NCBI RefSeq assembly: GCF_026676115.1
Contig: NZ_JAPONB010000001.1
Coordinates: 1 to 64,000, forward strand
Length of the DNA: 64,000 nt
Source of the DNA: Salinimicrobium sp. TH3
GTDB taxonomy: Bacteria; Bacteroidota; Bacteroidia; Flavobacteriales; Flavobacteriaceae
Direction of reading: 5' to 3'
A program made the position numbers and the translations under genes. A model generated the notes under the pieces. That model worked only from the letters and a program-made list of their open reading frames with translations. It did no database searches and was not told where the DNA came from. Positions 440 through 10,770 of this stretch are shown one piece after another. Within the stretch, counting starts at the first letter, position 1; every line of letters starts with the position of its first letter.

Positions 440-1828
440 CTACCAGGTAAACAGATAGAGTGGTGGCAGGATAAGCAGCATCCCAGCCAGCATAAGGATC
501 AATACAAGTGGAAAAGCCCATTTAAACCATCTGTCATAGGGAACATTGGCAATTGCAAGCGCACCCATCGTTACTCCGCTGGTGGGGACAATTATGTTTG
601 TCAAGCCGTCTCCCATCTGGAATGCAAGAACAGCAATTTCCCGACTTATTCCCAGTACATCACTCAGCGGTGCCATTATAGGCATAGTTAATGCCGCCTG
701 ACCGGATCCTGACGGAATAAAGAAATTAAGCGCACATTGGAACAGGAACATCAGCTCTGCAGAGATGTAGCGAGGGTAATCTGCCGCCATTAAGGCTACT
801 CCGTTTAGCATGCTGTCGATGATCTTGCCGTCCTGGGCAATTACAAGTAAACCTTTGGCCAGCCCTATCACAAGGGCTGCTTTCATCATTTCTTTTGCCC
901 CGTTTACAAAGGCATCTATAGACCTTTGCAGGGACATTTGATAAATTACAGCTGCTACAATTGAGAGTCCCAGGAACAGGGCTGCTATTTCATTGATATA
1001 CCAGTCCAGTTCATTTACCCCGTATACCAGGAAAAGAATGGCAGCCAACAATGCAAAAAGGATAATTTTTCTCCGTAAAGTAAGTTGTGGCATTTCATCC
1101 CCGGAAAGCTCTGAGGAGAATTCTTCAGAGATGCCGTACATCAGACTCTTTTTCGGATTTTTTTCAATTTTTCGCGCATATCTTGCAAGAACGATGCATG
1201 CAATTCCCGTCATCACCACCCATACAAAAAGGCGATATTCCATTCCTCCAAAAATTGGCACCTGAGCAATGCTCTGAGCGATCCCAACCGTAAAAGGATT
1301 GGTAAAGGCTCCCGCGAATCCTACCCCCGTACCAATAATGGGAATTGCCGCCCCTACAAGTGCATCATAGCCCAGAGCCGTTGATAGAGGAATGGTGATG
1401 AGGATAAAGACAAGGATCTCCTCACTCATTCCGAAGGTGGCTCCTGCAAGAGAAAACAAGGCAGTAACCCCTGGAACAATGTAATTCTTGTACTGCGGAT
1501 TTTTACGGGCAAATTTTATAATACTGAAAAGCCCTGAGTTTATTGCTCCGGTTTCATTTAGAACTGAAAAAGCACCCCCCACAAGAAAGACAAAGCCTAT
1601 AACAAATGCAGCAGAAATAAATCCCTTAATGGGAGCCGTAAGAAAGGCTCCGATTCCCTGCGGATTAGGATCGACACTTGAAAATGAGTCGGGAATGATC
1701 ATTTCCCTGCCATCAATTACTTCCCGCTGATATTCTCCCGCCGGAACGATCCAGGTAAGGCCAATGAAAATAACCATTATCACCAATATTATAGCAATGG
1801 TGTCCGGGAATTTCTTTATTGTACGCAT
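440..1828 (-). CDS. YfcC-family membrane carrier
   Basis: This is a 462-residue polytopic inner-membrane protein of the YfcC/C4-dicarboxylate anaerobic carrier type. It opens with one hydrophobic helix and the family signature TWIVPAGEY at about residues 24-32. About a dozen hydrophobic segments follow, with a conserved GSGQAALTMPIMAPL stretch near residue 375. The length is normal for the family. It is the last gene of the SusC-SusD-peptidase operon, only 4 bp after the cyanophycinase-like gene. By context it may bring the amino acids or dipeptides released by the two peptidases into the cytoplasm. Family assignment is firm. The substrate is inferred: YfcC proteins are poorly characterised and are often called basic amino acid carriers, which would suit arginine from cyanophycin-like material. 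Confidence 0.85.
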   Translation of the reverse strand: MRTIKKFPDTIAIILVIMVIFIGLTWIVPAGEYQREVIDGREMIIPDSFSSVDPNPQGIGAFLTAPIKGFISAAFVIGFVFLVGGAFSVLNETGAINSGLFSIIKFARKNPQYKNYIVPGVTALFSLAGATFGMSEEILVFILITIPLSTALGYDALVGAAIPIIGTGVGFAGAFTNPFTVGIAQSIAQVPIFGGMEYRLFVWVVMTGIACIVLARYARKIEKNPKKSLMYGISEEFSSELSGDEMPQLTLRRKIILFALLAAILFLVYGVNELDWYINEIAALFLGLSIVAAVIYQMSLQRSIDAFVNGAKEMMKAALVIGLAKGLLVIAQDGKIIDSMLNGVALMAADYPRYISAELMFLFQCALNFFIPSGSGQAALTMPIMAPLSDVLGISREIAVLAFQMGDGLTNIIVPTSGVTMGALAIANVPYDRWFKWAFPLVLILMLAGMLLILPPLYLFTW

Positions 1829-1832
1829 TGAA

Positions 1833-2720
1833 CTATTGTTTCAGAAGAAAAATTTCACCCGGCAATTTAACACTTACCTTGAGATCGTCAGCACCCAGGA
1901 GCCCGTTCTTGGACCTTTTACTTCCGTTTCGATTTTCAATTAAGATTACCTGCGCATTTCCCACTACTTTGGCCGAATCATTTTGAACTAGCAGAGCAGT
2001 AGATTCATCTATCCCTATAGATATTTCTCCCGGATTTTCTATCGCCGTGCTTAGCAACCGGTTCATCCTCATCCGTTGTATAAAATGTTGATCGATAATT
2101 GCATTTTCCAAAAGACCAAGTCCTTCTTTGAGTTCAATATTATCTGCCTCAATGGTAGCAAAGTCGCCGGTATATACCGGATGCTTGTATTCATTGCCGG
2201 TGATCATTTTTTTACTCATAACTGCTGCACCTGCACTTGTACCCGCAATGGTGGCTCCATTATAATAGGCTTCTTTAATAGCCTTGTGTGCGGGAGAATT
2301 TAAAACAATATCCATGAATGTGCTCTGGTCGCCTCCGGAAATATAGATCAGGTTTGCCTTTTTCAAACTGTCTAATCTGGCAGGGTCCTGCTGCTCTTTC
2401 GTGAAATTGAAACCTTTGATTTTTTCTGCAGGCACACCAAGTTCAGTAAATTGTTTTGCTGCATAAAACACAGCGGAATCCTGTTCTGAACTTGACATGG
2501 GAAGAATTACTGCATAAGCCCCGTTCTCCATATTGCTTACTTCAATGAGTTCCTTTATCATTTCAGGAGGTCGTTTTCCGCCTCCAATGATGAACAATGT
2601 GCCCTTAGGTTTTTGAAAAATTTCTCCCGTAGTGCCTTTTAGCTCCTTTCCAGTGTTTATCTTACAGGAGAAGACCAGGCAGGAGCATAGCAGGGCTAAT
2701 AATATTATCGGTTTCTTCAT
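1833..2720 (-). CDS. Cyanophycinase-like peptidase S51 lipoprotein
   Basis: This 295-residue protein has a lipoprotein signal peptide ending at the cysteine near residue 19. The peptidase S51 (cyanophycinase/peptidase E) fold is shown by GTLFIIGGG at 40-48, ISGGDQ at 127-132 and the nucleophile elbow AGTSAGA, whose serine is S162. Cyanophycinases release beta-aspartyl-arginine from cyanophycin; related S51 enzymes cleave other aspartyl peptides. Its partner just upstream is an isoaspartyl peptidase, which is the natural next step for beta-aspartyl dipeptides. A lipid anchor puts it in the periplasm or at the outer membrane. The exact substrate, cyanophycin or other aspartyl peptides, cannot be told from sequence alone. 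Confidence 0.85.
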   Translation of the reverse strand: MKKPIILLALLCSCLVFSCKINTGKELKGTTGEIFQKPKGTLFIIGGGKRPPEMIKELIEVSNMENGAYAVILPMSSSEQDSAVFYAAKQFTELGVPAEKIKGFNFTKEQQDPARLDSLKKANLIYISGGDQSTFMDIVLNSPAHKAIKEAYYNGATIAGTSAGAAVMSKKMITGNEYKHPVYTGDFATIEADNIELKEGLGLLENAIIDQHFIQRMRMNRLLSTAIENPGEISIGIDESTALLVQNDSAKVVGNAQVILIENRNGSKRSKNGLLGADDLKVSVKLPGEIFLLKQ

Positions 2721-2749: not shown

Positions 2750-3697
2750 TTAGATTTTTTCTTCCTTGTCCCAGATGAAAAGTTTACGTGTGGTATCAGT
2801 TGAAAATCCTCGGTACATTCCGGCTGAGTTATACGTCATGGAAATATTTCCTTCCCCGTCTACAGCAACGAGTCCGCCGTCTCCGCCCATTTTTCCATGG
2901 TGGTCAAAAATGGCTTTTTTGGAAGCTTCTTCGAGGGATAGGCCTGCAAATTCCATTAGATTGGAGACATAAGAGGCAACAGTAGCCCGAATAAAAAATT
3001 CGCCGATTCCCGTACAGGAAACAGCGCAACTATTGTTGTTGGCGTAGGTGCCACAGCCAATAATAGCCGAATCTCCTATTCTTCCTTCCATTTTATTTGT
3101 CATTCCACCCGTAGAGGTGGCGGCAGCTAGATTTCCGTCACTGTCCATTGCAACGGCACCCACAGTGCCCTTTTTAAAGTTGGAATGATCCAGAAAGGTC
3201 TCGTCTGCAGCATATTTTTGGGCCTGCTGCCATTGCTCTTTGCGGAAAGAGGTGTGAAAATAGTCATTTTCAACAATCTCATGTCCCATTTCTTCTGCGA
3301 GCAAATCGCTCTCTTTCCCAGATATCATCACGATGTCGTCTCTGTTCATAAGACTTTTTGCAAATTTCACAGGATTCTTGATTTTACTGCTGTTGGCCAG
3401 TGCGCCTGCTTTTAATTCCCGGCCTTCCATTAAGGAGGCTTCCAGCAAATGTTTTCCATTCCTGGAGTACACGGCTCCCCTGCCTGCGTTGAAGTGTTCG
3501 CTGTTTTCTAAATGCTCAACTGCCGCACAAACGGCATCCACGGCGCTTCCTCCTTCCTGAAGGATTTTTTCACCGGCTTTCAGACTTTTCTCGAGATCCT
3601 GCAGGATCAACTCTTTTTCCCCGGCAGATATAGTTGATTCATCGATCACCCCGGCTCCGCCATGTATACAGAGTGAATATTTTGTTTTTTTTGTCAT
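2750..3697 (-). CDS. Isoaspartyl peptidase / L-asparaginase (Ntn hydrolase)
   Basis: This is a type 2 asparaginase/beta-aspartyl peptidase of about 315 residues. CIHGGAG lies near the N-terminus, and the autoproteolysis site KKGTVGAVA supplies the nucleophile T178 counted from the ATG used here. TSTGGMTNK and GIGEFF follow in the small subunit. The frame stays open 99 bp further upstream to another ATG, but those extra 33 residues resemble no signal peptide, and the homologous domain starts only at MTKKTKYS. I therefore place the start at 3697. The enzyme removes N-terminal isoaspartyl residues from beta-aspartyl dipeptides, the products expected from the adjacent cyanophycinase-like enzyme. 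It sits between SusD and the S51 gene in one transcription unit. No export signal is seen, so it probably acts in the cytoplasm. Confidence 0.9.
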   Translation of the reverse strand: MTKKTKYSLCIHGGAGVIDESTISAGEKELILQDLEKSLKAGEKILQEGGSAVDAVCAAVEHLENSEHFNAGRGAVYSRNGKHLLEASLMEGRELKAGALANSSKIKNPVKFAKSLMNRDDIVMISGKESDLLAEEMGHEIVENDYFHTSFRKEQWQQAQKYAADETFLDHSNFKKGTVGAVAMDSDGNLAAATSTGGMTNKMEGRIGDSAIIGCGTYANNNSCAVSCTGIGEFFIRATVASYVSNLMEFAGLSLEEASKKAIFDHHGKMGGDGGLVAVDGEGNISMTYNSAGMYRGFSTDTTRKLFIWDKEEKI

Positions 3698-3834
3698 TTT
3701 TTTGTGGTTGTTCCGGTTATTCTGAAGGTAGAAACTTCCGGAAGAATGGTGCTTAAGTAGGTAAATGAGAGGGAGGGGAGATGCTGCTGTTTCCAACGCA
3801 CCTCCTGTCTCTAAATTAGGTAATTTTAGAAAAT

Positions 3835-5184
3835 CTAGTATCCGGGATTCTGCTCGATAACACCTCCTGAAATTGCGATTTCTCTCTGCGGAATTGGATA
3901 AACTGTACGGAAGGATTCTATTCCCAGGATAGCTTCAGCCCGGTCCAGGCGTACAATGTCAAACCATCTGTGTCCTTCAAAAGCCAGTTCTCTTGCGCGT
4001 TCTTCGAGGAGAATATCCACGAAGTCACTAAAACCGGCTACTTCTTCAGCTATTACCGGCATATCTGGCAGGGAGCGGGTTCGAACTTCATTAAGATCTT
4101 CTATGGCCATTTCGAGATCATCGGGATTTTGGCGGGCTCTTGCTTCCGCTCTTATCAGGTACATTTCAGAGAGCCTGAAAAGAATTGCGTTTCCTCCCAG
4201 CACACCGTCATTGGTTCCATACTTATCCACGAAGACAACTCTTCCATTGTCATAGTAAAGGTAACTTCGGGGGTCATCATCTGCATCCATAGGCTGGAAG
4301 AAATCGTCATAATTTGCGGAAACTTCAGGTGGAGAAATTGAGAAATACTCAGTTAAGGAGTTTCCATCTATTTCTGTGAACTGCAGTTCAAAAATAGCTT
4401 CCGCAGAACCTTCCGTTTCATAGATCTCATTATAATCGGAATTTAGAGCATAATCCGGATTTTCAATCACACTTGTGGCGAGTTCTTCTGCCATTACATA
4501 ATTCCCCTGATACAAATAGACCCTTGCCAGCAAAGCTTCCGCAGTAGCTTTGGACACCATGAATTTGTCTTCATCATACACCAGCAACTCTATGGCAGTC
4601 TCAAGATCTGAAATTATCTGAGCATAAGATGCTGCCACGCTGCTACGTGGGATCTCTAATGCAGCATTGACATTCACGTAATCAGTAAAAACGGGAATCC
4701 CATACGGAGAGTCATTCTCGGTGAATTTACCGAATTGTCTCAGCGCATCAAATAATCCTAATGCTCTAAAGAAATGAGCACTACCGGCTGCATTATCATT
4801 TTCGAGTCCCAGCTCTTCCATTTTATCAAAAACCAGGTTGCTTGAATTCACAAGGGCGTAAATATCTACCCAGTTGCTCTCAATATAAGCACTTGACGCG
4901 GGAATAACAGCCTCGTCGAGCTGGGCAAAACGCTCCCTGAATCCTGTGGCATCTGCAATCCCGCCCGTCAAAGCCTGCGCCATAATAAATTCGCCACCGT
5001 AGTAGGTGCCACTCTGCATGATGTCGTAAAGGCCAATCACGGCCGAGCGAAGGGAGATATCATCGGTTATAGCTTCTGTAGATCGAATTTCGTCATCCAG
5101 TTCAACGTCCAGTACATCATCACAGCCTGTAAAAATGAAGGTCAGCAATAGGACGCTCAGTATTGTATATTTAAATTTTTTCAT
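3835..5184 (-). CDS. SusD/RagB-family nutrient-binding lipoprotein
   Basis: This is a 449-residue SusD/RagB family protein with a lipoprotein signal ending at FTGC (C21). TPR-like helices carry the motif ATAEALLARVYLYQGNY at about 213-229, and the typical C-terminal block has RLSEMYLIRAEARAR and a terminal NPGY. At 449 residues it is near the short end for SusD. It starts 9 bp after the SusC stop and works with it as the lid of an outer-membrane import pair. Since the downstream genes are peptidases and no glycosidase is present, the cargo is more likely a peptide (RagB type) than a glycan; that is inference from context. Confidence 0.92.
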   Translation of the reverse strand: MKKFKYTILSVLLLTFIFTGCDDVLDVELDDEIRSTEAITDDISLRSAVIGLYDIMQSGTYYGGEFIMAQALTGGIADATGFRERFAQLDEAVIPASSAYIESNWVDIYALVNSSNLVFDKMEELGLENDNAAGSAHFFRALGLFDALRQFGKFTENDSPYGIPVFTDYVNVNAALEIPRSSVAASYAQIISDLETAIELLVYDEDKFMVSKATAEALLARVYLYQGNYVMAEELATSVIENPDYALNSDYNEIYETEGSAEAIFELQFTEIDGNSLTEYFSISPPEVSANYDDFFQPMDADDDPRSYLYYDNGRVVFVDKYGTNDGVLGGNAILFRLSEMYLIRAEARARQNPDDLEMAIEDLNEVRTRSLPDMPVIAEEVAGFSDFVDILLEERARELAFEGHRWFDIVRLDRAEAILGIESFRTVYPIPQREIAISGGVIEQNPGY

Positions 5185-5193
5185 GTCTGTAGA

Positions 5194-8193
5194 TTAAAAT
5201 GTTGCGTTAAACCCAATTGTGATGGTACGTGCCTGTCCCAGGGTTCCAAAATCTTCCCCCTGTAAAACATTAAGATCAGTTTGATTTGAAGTGTTGGTTG
5301 AGACTTCGGGATCAAAACCAAGATAATCTGTAAAGGTGAGCAGATTCTGACCCTGGATATATATACCGAAGTTGTTCATTCCAATCCTGTCGATCACAGA
5401 AGACGGAAGATTATAATTAAGGCGCAGGGTTTTTAGCCTGATGTAATCTCCATCCTCCAGAAACTGGGTGCTAAATCTTTGAAGCTGCCCGCTTTCTGTA
5501 GAAGGTCGTGGCACATCGGTCACCTGTCCCGGCTCTCTCCAATAGTTATCAAAAACCCTCTGGCTTATGTTCGCGTAAGGAATTCCGCTTCGGGTCCACC
5601 CAAAGTTTTCGTAAGCGTGCCTACTTTGGTTATAGATTTTGTTTCCTCCCGAAAAAGTGACATTTGCTGTAAGAGAGAAATTTTTATAGGAAAAGGTGTT
5701 TTGCCAGCCTCCAAAATAATCTGGAAGGGCGCTGCCTACGATCTGGCGGTCATCGAAGTTGATGAGCCCGTCGCCATTAACATCTTCAAAAAGGGCATCT
5801 CCTGTTTCGGGATCAACTCCTTCGTATTTTATAAGATAAAGAGTACTTACAGATTCCCCTTCTTTCAGGATGTGGTTTCTTCCCACTATCTCCCCGTCGT
5901 TGAGGAGTTTGATGATTTCGTTGTCCAGAAGCGAGAAGTTGATCCCCGATCTCCAGTTGAAATTCTTTCCTTCAATAATATCTGCTGTTAAGCTGAATTC
6001 GAACCCGGTATTCTGGATTTCACCTATGTTCTGGTAAACCGAACTGAATCCTGTAAGTCCCGGCACATCTGCACTTAGCAAAAGATCTTCGGTCTGTTTC
6101 TTAAAGTAGTCGGCAGTTATGCTGAAGCGCTCATTGAATAATCCGAAATCGAGTCCCAGGTTAAGCTGCTTGGTTTTTTCCCAGCCAAGATCTGCATTTT
6201 CAAGCCGGTTGGGTGCTATCCCTGGAATGTTGTTGTAACCTGCATTAAGCGAGTAGGTTCCCACCCAGTTGGAGGATATTTCCTGGTTTCCGGTAAGACC
6301 ATAACTTGCCCGAAGCTTCAGGTTTGAAACAGATTCAAAATCAAAGAAGCTCTCTTCATTGATTCTCCAGGCAACAGATGCAGAAGGGAAATAGCCATAC
6401 TGGTTTTCTGTTCCAAAACGAGAAGATCCATCTGCCCTTAGTGTAAAGGAGAAAATGTACCTGTTGTCAAAGCTATAGTTGGCGCGACCAAAGAAAGATT
6501 GAAGTCCGTATTCGTTTTTGGCAGATGTGCTGTTAATGATCGTGCTGGCTGCTGAAATACTGGTGGTGCTATTAGTGGCAAATCCAACCCCGGCCTGATC
6601 TGAGAACTGAGCTTTTGTCTCCTGTAGCGTCCACCCTGCAATTAAATCCAGATCGTGGAGCTGAGCGAAGCGACGGTTGTAGTTTAGCGTGTTTTCAAGT
6701 TGCCAGGTATTCTCTTCAAAAGTGGCAAAAATAGCTTCCCCCTGATCGGACTTATTCGTTCCCGGGGGAACAAAGGATTCTTCAACGAAGTTTGAGTACT
6801 CAGTTGAAAAGGCAGATCTAAAGGTAAGATCTGGAATAATGTCCCATTCCACAAAGGTAGAGGCCTGTACTCTTGTACTTCTCGAGTCATTAATATAATC
6901 TTCTGCAATCAATACCGGATTTTCCAGTGGCCACCAGGTATTGTAGTTGAAAGGATTCGTGAATTCCCCATTTTCATCCCTTATGGGTGCTGTAGGATCC
7001 CATCCCTGGGCATTAATGATCACCCCGTATTCATCATTCTCATTGATGGTACGGTCGTGTTCACTTCGGTTAAGGAATATTGTTGTTCCTATTTTTACTG
7101 AAGAGTTTATATCGTGATCAAGATTTAATCTCGTGCTCAGACGGTCAAAGTTTTGGCCAATCTGGATTCCTTCCTGTTCATATAAACTTCCGCTGAGGTA
7201 GAATCTCGTTTTTTCTGAACCGCCACGAACGCTTACATCCAGGTTCTGAGTAAGGCCGGTTCTAAAAATTTCATCATAGATATTTGTATGTACTCCGTTC
7301 GATGTATCAATCCAGTCAAAATAATCTGGTCCCAATCCGTCAAATTCCGCAGCAGTATTGAAAAAGGCCTTGAATTGCTCCGGTCCTACGAGATCGGGAG
7401 TGTTAGTAATTTCTGAAAATCCGGCGTAGTAGCCTACATTAACCAGGGTTTCACCTGCTTTTCCACGTTTAGTATTGATGAGCACTACCCCGTTGGCCCC
7501 TCTGGAACCATAGATCGAAGCAGCAGCAGCATCTTTTAGAATAGTAATGGATTTGATATCATTCGGATTGATGTCTGCCAGGGGATTGGTAGGCTGAATA
7601 TTGGTGTTAAGAGCGGAGTTGTTGCGGGAAACCAGAGGCACTCCGTCCACAATGAACAGCGGCTGGCTACTCGCTGAAATAGAAGAAACTCCCCGGATGT
7701 TAATGTTAATTGCCGAACCAGGGGTAGCTGAGGCAGAGGAGATATTTACTCCCGGAGTCTGCCCCTGAAGCGCAGTTTCAAAACTCGAAGCCGGACTTTT
7801 TGAAATCTCTTCGCTTTGAATCGTCTGGATACTGCTACTTACATCTTTACGTTCCTGAGTACCGTATCCAACGATGACTACCTCCTCAAGGGTTTTGTCA
7901 GATTCCAGTTGGATCTCATAGTTTGATTCTTCCGTTAATGGTATGGTTTGAGGTTTATAGCCAATATAAGAAACCTCCAGGGCCTGTACATCTTCGCCCA
8001 CTTCAATTGAGAAGTTACCGTCGAAATCTGCCACCACCCCTTTGTTGGTGTTGGGAACAAGAATATTCGCCCCAATAAGAGGCTGCCCCGTGTCCTGGGC
8101 GGTTACTTTTCCTGTAATGATACGTTGGGCATTGGCAGAGAAACTTATCAGAAGTACAAGAAAAGAAATGAGTAATGAGTTTTTTGCATTCAT
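5194..8193 (-). CDS. SusC/RagA-family TonB-dependent receptor
   Basis: This is a 999-residue outer-membrane receptor. Its signal peptide ends at SANA-Q (about residue 22). A carboxypeptidase-regulatory-like domain follows (about 23-105, with DFDGNFSIEV), then the SusC linker EEVVIVGYGTQ, the plug with AAAASIYGSRGANGVVLINTKRG ending near 245, and a 22-strand barrel closing on an aromatic ATF terminus. It forms an operon with the SusD-like gene and the isoaspartyl/cyanophycinase genes. The start lies only 2 nt after a long stem that involves the stop codon of an upstream leader frame, so translation is probably controlled by that leader. No sigma/anti-sigma genes are nearby. Confidence 0.93.
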   Translation of the reverse strand: MNAKNSLLISFLVLLISFSANAQRIITGKVTAQDTGQPLIGANILVPNTNKGVVADFDGNFSIEVGEDVQALEVSYIGYKPQTIPLTEESNYEIQLESDKTLEEVVIVGYGTQERKDVSSSIQTIQSEEISKSPASSFETALQGQTPGVNISSASATPGSAININIRGVSSISASSQPLFIVDGVPLVSRNNSALNTNIQPTNPLADINPNDIKSITILKDAAAASIYGSRGANGVVLINTKRGKAGETLVNVGYYAGFSEITNTPDLVGPEQFKAFFNTAAEFDGLGPDYFDWIDTSNGVHTNIYDEIFRTGLTQNLDVSVRGGSEKTRFYLSGSLYEQEGIQIGQNFDRLSTRLNLDHDINSSVKIGTTIFLNRSEHDRTINENDEYGVIINAQGWDPTAPIRDENGEFTNPFNYNTWWPLENPVLIAEDYINDSRSTRVQASTFVEWDIIPDLTFRSAFSTEYSNFVEESFVPPGTNKSDQGEAIFATFEENTWQLENTLNYNRRFAQLHDLDLIAGWTLQETKAQFSDQAGVGFATNSTTSISAASTIINSTSAKNEYGLQSFFGRANYSFDNRYIFSFTLRADGSSRFGTENQYGYFPSASVAWRINEESFFDFESVSNLKLRASYGLTGNQEISSNWVGTYSLNAGYNNIPGIAPNRLENADLGWEKTKQLNLGLDFGLFNERFSITADYFKKQTEDLLLSADVPGLTGFSSVYQNIGEIQNTGFEFSLTADIIEGKNFNWRSGINFSLLDNEIIKLLNDGEIVGRNHILKEGESVSTLYLIKYEGVDPETGDALFEDVNGDGLINFDDRQIVGSALPDYFGGWQNTFSYKNFSLTANVTFSGGNKIYNQSRHAYENFGWTRSGIPYANISQRVFDNYWREPGQVTDVPRPSTESGQLQRFSTQFLEDGDYIRLKTLRLNYNLPSSVIDRIGMNNFGIYIQGQNLLTFTDYLGFDPEVSTNTSNQTDLNVLQGEDFGTLGQARTITIGFNATF

Positions 8194-8195
8194 TT

Positions 8196-8276
8196 TAGAA
8201 CATTTTAGTTAATAATACACATCTCACTCTTCCGGGAAAGGGAAAAGAGAAAATACAGCTGAACTAAAATATTCTA
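8196..8276 (-). promoter_or_regulatory. Leader stem sequestering the SusC start region
   Basis: In the minus-strand RNA, UAGAAUAUUUUAGUU (8276 to 8262) pairs with AACUAAAAUGUUCUA (8210 to 8196). That is 15 consecutive pairs with one G-U wobble. The 5' arm begins with the UAG stop of the proximal leader frame; the 3' arm ends 2 nt before the SusC AUG. The loop holds a smaller UUCCCGGAA palindrome. A ribosome held at the UAG would open the stem and free the SusC start. The pairing is seen in the sequence; the control mechanism is inferred. Confidence 0.6.
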
Positions 8277-8399
8277 GCAGTCAAAGATTGGCTGAAGTCC
8301 TCTTAACGTAAGAGATTTGCAGCCAGAGGGAAAAGAAAATGATACTATGCTTTTCATCGTGTAAAAAAATAAAATGGTCAAAAAAAGAAGATGTTGCAT
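8274..8399 (-). CDS. Leader peptide A (proximal), C-terminal CKSLTLRGLQPIFDC
   Basis: This short frame lies in the SusC leader. From the ATG at 8399 it codes for 41 residues with a hydrophobic N-terminal part (LLFLTILFFY); an inner ATG at 8357 would give 27. It ends CKSLTLRGLQPIFDC followed by TAG. A second frame 165 bp upstream ends in the same 15 residues except for Q in place of R. Over these codons the differences are almost all silent (AAA/AAG, TCT/TCC, CTT/CTA, ACG/ACT, TTA/CTA, GGA/GGG, CTT/CTC), the mark of selection on protein. The ATG at 8399 is caught in a 7-bp hairpin. Conservation right up to the stop suggests an arrest-type regulatory peptide. A secreted peptide with a Cys-Cys bridge is the alternative. 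I do not recognise the family. Confidence 0.6.
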   Translation of the reverse strand: MQHLLFLTILFFYTMKSIVSFSFPSGCKSLTLRGLQPIFDC

Positions 8400-8415
8400 C
8401 TGGAAGATAGATGCA
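8395..8415 (-). promoter_or_regulatory. Hairpin over the start codon of leader peptide A
   Basis: TGCATCT and AGATGCA form a perfect 7-bp stem around a 7-nt loop on the minus-strand RNA. The ATG at 8399 lies inside the 3' arm, so initiation at this codon would need the hairpin to open, for example through a ribosome moving in from upstream, or initiation would shift to the ATG at 8357. The role is inferred from position. Confidence 0.45.
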
Positions 8416-8438
8416 GTTACAGCTGTTCCGATTGGAAT

Positions 8439-8519
8439 CTAGCAGTCAAAGATTGGCTGGAGCCCCTGTAGAGTTAGGGACTTGCAACAAAATGCCAATG
8501 TTGTTTTTTTAGTAATCAC
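8439..8519 (-). CDS. Leader peptide B (distal), C-terminal CKSLTLQGLQPIFDC
   Basis: This is a 26-codon frame from a GTG at 8519, close after the predicted promoter (8571-8578). The peptide starts MITKKTTLAFC and ends CKSLTLQGLQPIFDC, then TAG. No ATG is available in the open frame, so the GTG is the best start but remains uncertain. The last seven codons, the stop and the next base are identical in DNA to the proximal copy, while the eight codons before them differ mainly at silent positions. Both copies also share CAGCTGTA 12-13 nt after the stop, so the whole leader unit looks duplicated. It is the first frame a ribosome would meet on the SusC mRNA. Confidence 0.5.
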   Translation of the reverse strand: MITKKTTLAFCCKSLTLQGLQPIFDC

Positions 8520-8570
8520 CAGGTTTATTTCTAATTGGTTTGATAAAAGTATAAATAATTCTTAAAGAAA

Positions 8571-8578
8571 CAAATATA
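8571..8578 (-). promoter_or_regulatory. Putative promoter of the SusC leader/operon
   Basis: The minus strand reads TATATTTG, a full TAnnTTTG match. The predicted start point near 8564 would give a leader of about 370 nt before SusC, holding both short frames and all the inverted repeats. A clear -33 element is not seen. Confidence 0.5.
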
Positions 8579-8706: not shown

Positions 8707-8737
8707 GAAAAAGCCCGGTTCCTGACCGGGCTTTTTC
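8707..8737. terminator. Bidirectional hairpin terminator
   Basis: GAAAAAGCCCGGT and ACCGGGCTTTTTC form a perfect inverted repeat with a 5-nt loop, A-rich on one side and T-rich on the other. It lies immediately downstream of the decayed proC tail and probably served as that gene's terminator. It now separates the acyl-CoA synthetase unit from the SusC leader. Confidence 0.8.
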
Positions 8738-8973: not shown

Positions 8974-10770
8974 TTAACTGTAAATCGACTGAATAAAATC
9001 CTGGTACTTCTCTATGATCGTTTTTCTTTTAAGCTTTAGGGTAGGAGTTAATTCCCCGCCTTCAATGGTCCATTCATTTGGAATTAACCGGAATTTCTTG
9101 ATTTGTTCTACAGGATTAAAATCCTGGTTGAATTGCGTGACAGATGCGCTTATTAATTCCCTCGCTTCCCTATCATGCATCACCTTGTCGTTCCCGGGAT
9201 AAGGTTTTTCCTGTTCCATATACCATTTTTTCAAGGCTTCAAAAGCAGGGACTACCAGAGCTCCTACAAATTTTTGTAGTTCCCCAACCACCATGATCTG
9301 CTCGATCCAGGGGCTCTCCACCATCTTATTTTCAATGGGTTGGGGTGCCACAAATTTCCCGCCGCTGGTTTTGATAAGTTCTTTCTTTCTATCGGTGATC
9401 TTCAGGAATTTCCCGTCTTTCATTTTTCCAATGTCGCCGGTACGCAGCCATTCTCCTTCCATTACCTCTTCAGTAAGATCGGGTCTTTTGTAATAGCCAA
9501 TCATTACGTTTGGTCCTTTGCACAGAATTTCTCCATCTTCGGCTATTTTCACCTCAACATCCTTCAGCAGTGGTCCCACAGTGCCAAACATCCTGTTCTT
9601 TTCGTCGTAACGATTCCCACTAATTATTGGTGAGGCTTCGGTGAGGCCGTAACCTTCCTGTATCACGATGTCGGCTGCAGTAAAGATCTTCAGCAAACGT
9701 ACCTGGCATGCAGCAGCTCCTGTAATGATAGATTTGATCTCGCCACCAAGGGCATCTCTCCATTTGCTGAAGATAAGCTTGTTGGCCAAGGCGAGCTGCA
9801 ACTTATAACTAAGGCTTTTTGGCTGATTGATCTCAAATCGCTCTGCCAGGCCCAGCGCCCAAAAGAATAGTTTCTTTTTAATTCCTGTCAGTTGATTTCC
9901 CTTGGCTAGAATGCCTTCGTAAATTTTCTCAAGAAGGCGTGGAACAGTAGTAAAAAGAGTTGGTTTAACCTCTTTAAGATTTGCGGCTATTGTATCCATA
10001 CTTTCCGCATAATAGACCGCTGCCCCGCTATAAAAAAAGCAGTAGGTTGCCATGCGTTCAAAAGCATGGTTAAGAGGCAGGAAACTTATCACTCTTTTTC
10101 CCTGTACTCCCACCTCCTGAATAACATCGGCAGCACCAAGGGAATTGCTAACGATGTTGCGGTGTGACAACATAACACCTTTTGGAGTTCCGGTTGTTCC
10201 TGAAGTATAAAGAATACTGGCAAGATCTGTTTCCTTTACAGCTACTTTTAGCTGTTGAACCTGCGACTTCTCCTCTGTTGTAAGCTCCTTCATTAATTGG
10301 GTTAGTTGAGGTAACCCGGGCACTTCCTTGAAAGAATAAACCTCCTGTAAAGCCGGTAAATTCTCTTTGATCTCTTTTATCTTTTTATAAAGAGGTTCAT
10401 CTCCAACGAAGATCATTTTCACACCTGCATCTTCCAGAATGAATTGTAATTCTTTAGTGGTGATATTTGGATAAACAGGAACAGACACAGCCCCAATCTG
10501 CTGAATTGCCAAATCCGCCATCATCCATTCGGGGCAGTTCTGGCTAATTATTCCAATTTTATCTTTTCCTTCTATACTGTTGTCACCTGCGGAAAATCCC
10601 ATTTTCAAAAGTGAGGCACTTATTTGATCTGCTTTTTCACTTACTTCGCTGGTGCTGTATTTTCTCCACTCACCATTTTCTTTAGCAGCAAGCATATCGG
10701 GAAGGGGGAAATTCTCAAGTTGATAATTAAGGCAGTCAAAAAGCCGCTTTGGATTTTGTTTAGATGCCAT
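8974..10770 (-). CDS. Long-chain fatty acid--CoA ligase (AMP-forming)
   Basis: This 598-residue ANL-superfamily enzyme activates long-chain fatty acids to acyl-CoA through an acyl-adenylate. The P-loop-like motif YTSGTTGTPKG is at 188-198, GYGLTEASP lies in the central block, and WLRTGDIGKMKDGKFLKITDRKKELIKTSGGK carries the hinge and C-terminal catalytic lysine. Length and order match bacterial/eukaryotic-like long-chain acyl-CoA synthetases. No signal peptide is seen; the enzyme should be cytoplasmic and membrane-associated. It follows proC on the same strand, but a terminator lies between them, so it is probably transcribed alone. Confidence 0.92.
   Translation of the reverse strand: MASKQNPKRLFDCLNYQLENFPLPDMLAAKENGEWRKYSTSEVSEKADQISASLLKMGFSAGDNSIEGKDKIGIISQNCPEWMMADLAIQQIGAVSVPVYPNITTKELQFILEDAGVKMIFVGDEPLYKKIKEIKENLPALQEVYSFKEVPGLPQLTQLMKELTTEEKSQVQQLKVAVKETDLASILYTSGTTGTPKGVMLSHRNIVSNSLGAADVIQEVGVQGKRVISFLPLNHAFERMATYCFFYSGAAVYYAESMDTIAANLKEVKPTLFTTVPRLLEKIYEGILAKGNQLTGIKKKLFFWALGLAERFEINQPKSLSYKLQLALANKLIFSKWRDALGGEIKSIITGAAACQVRLLKIFTAADIVIQEGYGLTEASPIISGNRYDEKNRMFGTVGPLLKDVEVKIAEDGEILCKGPNVMIGYYKRPDLTEEVMEGEWLRTGDIGKMKDGKFLKITDRKKELIKTSGGKFVAPQPIENKMVESPWIEQIMVVGELQKFVGALVVPAFEALKKWYMEQEKPYPGNDKVMHDREARELISASVTQFNQDFNPVEQIKKFRLIPNEWTIEGGELTPTLKLKRKTIIEKYQDFIQSIYS

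Follow-up and report, generated by a model that had tools for sequence, protein, structure and literature searches.

The locus raises the question of why two short open frames with nearly the same C-terminal ending stand one behind the other ahead of a single operon, and what their products do. The window, that is, the whole stretch of DNA that was analysed, comprises 64,000 nucleotides of Salinimicrobium sp. TH3. Both frames are read from its minus strand and are flanked by a promoter-like site (8574-8545) on one side and the start of SusC (8193) on the other; the region is organised as follows.

8545..8574, minus strand: Bacteroidota-type promoter candidate, TTTG-N19-TAnnTTT, with the window letters TTTG...TACTTTT
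8439..8519, minus strand: leader A, GTG start, 26 codons, MITKKTTLAFCCKSLTLQGLQPIFDC-TAG, conserved block 8442-8486
8274..8357, minus strand: leader B, ATG start, 27 codons, MKSIVSFSFPSGCKSLTLRGLQPIFDC-TAG, conserved block 8277-8321
5194..8193, minus strand: SusC/RagA TonB-linked outer-membrane protein, first structural gene of the operon, TIGR04056 above cutoff
3835..5184, minus strand: SusD-family lipoprotein
2750..3697, minus strand: Asparaginase_2 / isoaspartyl (beta-aspartyl) peptidase, the ATG-started form of frame 2750-3796
1833..2720, minus strand: cyanophycinase, TIGR02069 at 155.1 bits against a cutoff of 126.6, Pfam Peptidase_S51
440..1828, minus strand: YfcC-like transporter, last gene of the operon, below the equivalog cutoff

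The promoter candidate was assigned by what we take to be the Bacteroidota promoter consensus. The Asparaginase_2 product matched the beta-aspartyl-peptidase model with a score below the equivalog cutoff; its frame 2750-3796 begins at TTG, and the ATG at 3697 gives a protein of 315 aa, which matches the length of its homologues. Both leaders terminate in CKSLTL(Q/R)GLQPIFDC-stop, an ending of 15 common codons. Eight of these differ between leaders A and B (AAG/AAA, TCC/TCT, CTA/CTT, ACT/ACG, CTA/TTA, CAG/AGA, GGG/GGA and CTC/CTT), and reading of both frames bears out the first-pass annotation, which had counted seven silent differences and one replacement of Q by R. A repeat search of the window returned the pair as a direct repeat of 49 nt with 80% identity, 165 nt apart, and the 21-nt motif core occurred twice (three mismatches or fewer) against 0.00 expected in the shuffled window. 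Searched with this core and two degenerate patterns, the genome itself holds two copies only, both of them the window leaders. We propose that these frames belong to a new family of cis-acting leader peptides which control cyanophycin use by ligand-dependent termination arrest, in the manner of TnaC and SpeFL, and we put the probability of this reading at about 0.72.

The family was collected with a degenerate scan for GLQPIFxC-stop over one genome per species (84,980 genomes), which yielded 75 stretches, 57 of them judged leader-like. The other 18 were excluded: five had TGG in place of the stop, twelve were without [DN]C, and in L133 (GLQPIFNC) there was no room for a start codon. The 57 leader-like stretches, the window and two operons found through SusD (L052, with CKSLTLRGLQPIFNC-TGA, and L053, with CKPLTLQ/CKSLTLKGLQPIFDC-TAA, both of the same gene order as the window operon) together gave 101 distinct copies with 89 distinct cores, from which 45 representatives were taken. 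The consensus reads K-[SP]-L-x-L-x-[GN]-L-Q-P-[IV]-F-[DN]-C-stop, since a relaxed search brought out extra variants at the same loci in which N replaces G and V replaces I, e.g. RNLQPIFDC-stop. All records of the 57 stretches are named as Bacteroidota groups, save two MAGs with SusC genes, and the genera include Flavobacterium, Christiangramia, Galbibacter, Tamlana, Aquimarina, Robertkochia, Marivirga, Mangrovivirga, Marinigracilibium, Flammeovirga, Schleiferia, Phaeodactylibacter and other Saprospiraceae. The first-pass annotation had staked its idea on there being other genomes with the motif in frame near a SusC gene, and such genomes were found. Close orthologous operons (SusD 65-66% identical) carry the motif in both G120 (one copy, TGA stop) and G304 (two copies, TAA stop); the motif is absent from six paralogous SusCD loci with SusD identities of 34-39%.

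The family is rare: among 395 genomes of the class three hold real copies, and among 395 of the phylum again three, with the own genome and G445 belonging to both sets. The GLQPIFxC pattern matched in 12 class genomes, of which three hold real leaders (own, G445 and G634) and nine were set down to chance by their context despite zero matches in the reversed control. A wider pattern matched in four phylum genomes, three of them real (own, G445 and G878), and the match WTFQPIFNC in G095 was rejected as chance. At the DNA level, the 411-nt leader searched against 99 relatives matched 29 genomes at E <=0.01, the own genome included; the matches in other relatives spanned 22-56 nt at E 1e-4 or weaker and were judged chance. 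The same applies to the 21-mer with up to three mismatches (three other genomes of 299, against four for the reversed control) and to two pattern matches in the viral collection, and the DNA search of the plasmid collection gave no match. Rfam reported three tRNAs only above the gathering score in the whole window, and NCBIfam gave no family for either peptide at E 1, a weak test with such short queries. No published description of the family was found among the matches listed by a literature search whose coverage leaves out most subscription journals and preprints.

Codon use in the 101 copies shows what kind of element is conserved. Position -2 is Leu in 98 copies with all six Leu codons in use, position -6 is Lys in 89 and Glu in 11, and position -4 is Leu in 76. 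Residues R, K, Q and M interchange, as do D (47 copies) and N (54), in rows that had been filtered for [DN], so that the restriction to these two is fixed by the selection of rows. All three stops are used (38 TAG, 37 TGA and 26 TAA), and the common TAG remarked on in the first-pass annotation thus stands for both window copies and does not extend family-wide. In a codon-linkage permutation, first and third codon bases were shuffled among the 45 representatives in 4000 permutations. None of these reached the observed counts of Leu at -2 (43 against 37.5 expected) or of R/K/Q/M at -1 (31 against 18.6); the same result was obtained for Leu at +1 (45 against 38.5) and for the stop (45 against 39.7), both of which the row filter required, the raw pattern having permitted Phe and TGG. 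The Phe and TGG matches all lacked the upstream block. Linkage was weak at position -6 (p 0.02) and not significant at position -4 (28 Leu against 26.6 expected) in the same 45 representatives. The use of all three stops and the codon linkage fit a constraint on the amino acids and on termination as such rather than on the bases, and selection on the peptide, earlier read from the two frames, is confirmed far beyond the window locus. Conservation ends exactly at the stop, and the N-terminus is free.

The genes behind the leaders point to one substrate. In 68 readable copies, sorted by hand, the next gene lies on the same strand at a median of 105 nt from the leader stop and encodes SusC in 39, cyanophycinase in 13, Asparaginase_2 in two, a choice-of-anchor-J type protein in 13 and another protein in one. 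A cyanophycinase or Asparaginase_2 gene was present within the fetched stretches in 44 of 60 loci. For 14 of the remaining 16, whole-genome search of 13 genomes gave 37 leader matches and none in the reversed control; by hand count, 29 of the 37 are followed within 8 kb by a same-strand Peptidase_S51 gene, four stand before Asparaginase_2 operons, three lie at a contig end and one (L173:2036, plus strand) has neither. In a test free of the motif, 5 of 299 genomes of the bacterial family (own included) had a cyanophycinase at E <=1e-40, and the leader was present in four of the five. The first-pass annotation had suggested a product of aspartyl-peptide breakdown as the ligand, and the gene context supports this link while narrowing it to cyanophycin, whose breakdown leads to beta-Asp-Arg. 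Published work gives beta-Asp-Arg as the cyanophycinase product (PMC10206079) and uses gene context to connect a TonB-dependent transporter with cyanophycinase (PMC3400609).

Several genomes carry multiple leaders, each ahead of its own gene or operon (L079, L170 and L173), which argues for action in cis. On the minus strand of L079, a Cytophagales MAG, there are four leaders, three of them with N for G (RNLQPIFDC, LNLQPIFNC and LNLQPIFDC); three stand before separate genes of the cyanophycin cluster (two cyanophycinases and one Asparaginase_2) and the fourth is near the end of the stretch. An orphan leader at L173:2036 on the plus strand, equal to a copy in L077 (MKRKNKMIPTKTLSLRGLQPIFNC), has no cyanophycin gene adjacent, and the next sizeable gene, 416 nt away, is of F420_oxidored type. 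In the same bacterial family, L155 (G206) has a cyanophycinase operon with SusCD and no leader. Its 354-aa upstream protein resembles by eye an anti-sigma factor of FecR type, which suggests another regulator there.

A gene of choice-of-anchor-J type is often the first behind the leader (L075, L086, L090, L095, L100, L101, L107 and L110, and further L124, L128, L129, L140, L147, L167 and L168), and many of these loci are from Saprospiraceae. The assignment was confirmed by a model in L086 and made by eye in the others, and a T9SS tail was seen in L086 and L100; such a tail is also present on some cyanophycinases. The choice-of-anchor-J protein is perhaps a surface cyanophycin-binding protein. 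Divergent leader pairs about 280-460 nt apart occur in L086, L090, L098, L101, L107, L110, L124, L128, L129, L140 and L147; in these Saprospiraceae-like loci one leader faces SusC and the other the choice-of-anchor-J/cyanophycinase arm.

Where leaders occur in tandem, the two copies differ in their start codons. A distance rule sorted 25 first and 25 second copies. L080 was re-sorted, the copy at 7709 (ATG, codon 27) being the second, behind a GLQPVF variant, and that at 7929 (TTG, codon 26) the first. After this exchange an in-frame TTG or GTG was found in all 25 first copies; counted from the stop, it is codon 26 in 24 of them and codon 24 in one, and three (L074, L112 and L080 7929) also have an ATG closer to the stop. 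An in-frame ATG is present in every one of the 25 second copies, and 42 of 51 copies without a recognised neighbour likewise use ATG. We know of no report of such a non-AUG/AUG division between tandem leaders. A TAnnTTT element stands 22-35 nt upstream of the start in 22 of 24 first-leader copies examined, a count from AT-rich DNA without a control.

The RNA behind the stops has features of its own. In the first 25 nt after the stop, C makes up 24% and G 12% (C/G 2.06), with C exceeding G in 84% of 87 rows. The ratio was 0.89 in 194 control regions taken from ahead of other genes at these loci, which may include coding DNA, and over 50 nt the difference had a Mann-Whitney p of 3e-18, related rows being non-independent. 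This bias fits Rho loading and is no proof of Rho. Against dinucleotide shuffles, the segments between the last stop and the gene had a mean z of -1.52 (24 of 51 below -1.64), and those from A to B likewise -1.52 (9 of 23 below -1.64). The A-to-B segment of the window reached z -2.70; no structure emerged when such segments from Flavobacterium were folded to a consensus. The window contains the following elements.

8380..8415, minus strand: hairpin and U-tract after leader A, 7-bp stem 8415-8395, U-tract 8389-8380
8262..8273, minus strand: 5' helix arm, first base directly after the stop codon of leader B
8227..8249, minus strand: inner hairpin between the arms, from the fold
8199..8210, minus strand: 3' helix arm, 6-17 nt upstream of the SusC ATG (8193)

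The first is a terminator-like candidate by its predicted shape, with the U-tract displaced 5 nt from the stem. The pairing of 8273-8262 with 8210-8199 (fold z -4.92, duplex z -3.82) is predicted to form a helix that would mask the ribosome entry site of SusC. Pairing from the stop to SusC was detected in 12 of 47 groups, with strong cases in six groups of Flavobacterium and two of Christiangramia, by a test that shuffled single bases of one arm and in which related species are non-independent. It was not seen in three Flammeovirga groups or in most Saprospiraceae, and masking of the ribosome binding site was rejected as a general mechanism on the 12 of 47.

Taken together, the conservation to the stop, the free N-terminus, the separate cis copies of the targets in one genome and the candidate attenuator features of the RNA behind the stop are best fitted by an arrest-type reading, in which the leader peptides probably act as switches by ribosome stalling. 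The ligand would be a breakdown product of cyanophycin, most likely beta-Asp-Arg and next L-arginine; beta-Asp-Arg is ranked first because it is the cyanophycinase product and specific to the pathway. If sensed, it would be, to our knowledge, the first peptide metabolite known to be sensed by the ribosome. With ligand, the nascent C-terminus in the exit tunnel would keep the finished peptide from being released; the ribosome, held at the stop codon, would cover the RNA immediately downstream. At leader A it would prevent premature transcription termination, of Rho type or at a weak hairpin, and at leader B of the window it would cover the arm 8273-8262 and free 8210-8199, opening SusC translation. 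Without ligand the ribosome would depart and the operon remain off. This division of labour in the window, with A acting on transcription and B on SusC translation, is inferred, and the weakness of the non-AUG start codon in leader A probably determines how frequently the gate is sampled. Extended to the family, it would make a two-gate nascent-chain sensor in which the UUG/GUG copy gates transcription and the AUG copy gates SusC translation, which senses beta-aspartyl-arginine and controls a scattered cyanophycin regulon of Bacteroidota; in this full form the proposal is tentative and rather doubtful. Four points go beyond the first-pass annotation: the non-AUG/AUG division, the helix pairing with the ribosome binding site, the cyanophycin regulon and the distribution across Bacteroidota.

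PMC8429421 describes TnaC as a leader whose release at the stop codon is prevented by tryptophan; the stationary ribosome then lies over a rut site just downstream. The likeness lies in the length (24 residues, against 24-30 in our tandem copies), in key residues of the C-terminal half reaching to the stop, in a catabolic operon with a transporter, and in RNA rich in C and poor in G immediately behind the stop, the place of the rut site in tnaC (PMC8429421). It is this anatomy, together with the free N-terminus, that led us to propose termination arrest. There is no sequence likeness: the TnaC residue set Trp12, Asp16, Ile19 and Pro24 named in that paper is not reproduced, as the family ends in [DN]C with Cys in place of the essential Pro24, conserved Trp is absent and so is the Trp12/Asp16 pattern. 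The family differs further in its phylum and substrate, its tandem copies, its non-AUG first copy and, in some members, a helix masking the ribosome binding site. In attenuators of ErmC type, a ribosome stalled on the leader opens a helix that holds the following start codon, and the geometry predicted after leader B is alike; unlike ErmC, the present family shows such pairing in just 12 of 47 groups, no antibiotic gene is involved and arrest presumably takes place at the stop. We know of no sequence likeness of the family to SpeFL or to the fungal arginine attenuator peptide, which is eukaryotic and whose arginine sensing we take from its name. SpeFL of gammaproteobacteria, which responds to L-ornithine, shares with our proposal a small-molecule termination arrest in the arginine/ornithine sphere and differs in having an N-terminal sensor domain (PMC8429421), the N-terminus of our family being unconserved; the attenuator peptide is named in PMC8429421 beside TnaC and SpeFL for nascent-chain sensing. 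Leader-like short frames have been noted in Bacteroides (PMC7366714), and our literature search found no small-molecule arrest peptide of Bacteroidota among the matches listed.

Other readings have to be weighed against termination arrest. The peptides could be real and act in cis by classical attenuation, the switch being set by slow codons or limiting charged tRNA; amino-acid biosynthesis operons of Flavobacterium are controlled by leader-peptide attenuation with short leaders and attenuator-like RNA, according to PMC9723704, and the present peptides do contain a codon for Asp or Asn and in many copies one for Arg or Lys. Runs of a single codon are absent from the 101 copies (codon table by eye), D and N as well as R, K, Q and M swap, and the conserved Leu, Gln, Pro, Ile, Phe and Cys are unrelated to the amino acids of cyanophycin, which makes attenuation unlikely. 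An arrest could also be constitutive and independent of ligand, sensing for instance stress in outer-membrane assembly or in secretion for SusC and T9SS cargo. SecM and VemP are comparators of this kind for Sec. Many targets are indeed exported (SusC, T9SS cyanophycinases and choice-of-anchor-J proteins). By eye, however, there is no signal peptide or membrane segment that could be pulled, leaders also stand directly before Asparaginase_2 genes (L127, L085 and L170), and the family is tied to one substrate and not to SusC generally, with two copies in the own genome by the patterns used, so we hold this reading to be somewhat less probable still.

A pheromone, small membrane protein or toxin, that is, a peptide secreted or acting in trans, would agree with the short length, the hydrophobic residues, the C-terminal Cys and the two Cys of many copies, and the first-pass annotation had listed a secreted Cys-bounded signal as the rival. 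Such a signal is disfavoured: copies in the same genome each stand ahead of their own gene or operon, the N-terminus is unconserved with about 11 residues before the block in the 26-mers, and the first Cys of the motif is C in only 47 of 101 copies, and we consider a role in trans distinctly improbable. A conserved RNA or DNA element, a riboswitch or an operator with an incidental open frame, was considered first because a small core hairpin, present in each window copy, seemed to covary between the two, and the region downstream is structured. Rfam has no overlap with 8274-8519 even at E 5, the window core folds no better than about z -1.9, and third positions are free while the residues and any stop are kept. 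By the Rfam search, the fold scores and above all the linked-codon test the structured RNA was rejected, and we regard this as the least likely of these readings.

Small-molecule-sensing arrest peptides are rare, and termination arrest, if correct, comes here with a comparative set of about 100 copies and with the same sensor twice in one leader under differing start codons. The pathway is named, and the list of ligands is therefore short. It would show how the consumption of cyanophycin, in which cyanobacteria store nitrogen, is switched on in Bacteroidota. The family further marks the little-known choice-of-anchor-J proteins as likely parts of this pathway. Two further elements of the window may be recorded. 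A perfect 13-bp inverted repeat with T/A flanks (8707-8737) lies between an AMP-binding gene (8974-10770) and the leader and is probably the terminator of that gene. Two tRNA genes of equal Rfam score are found on the minus strand at 1-74 and 221-294, their starts 220 bases apart.
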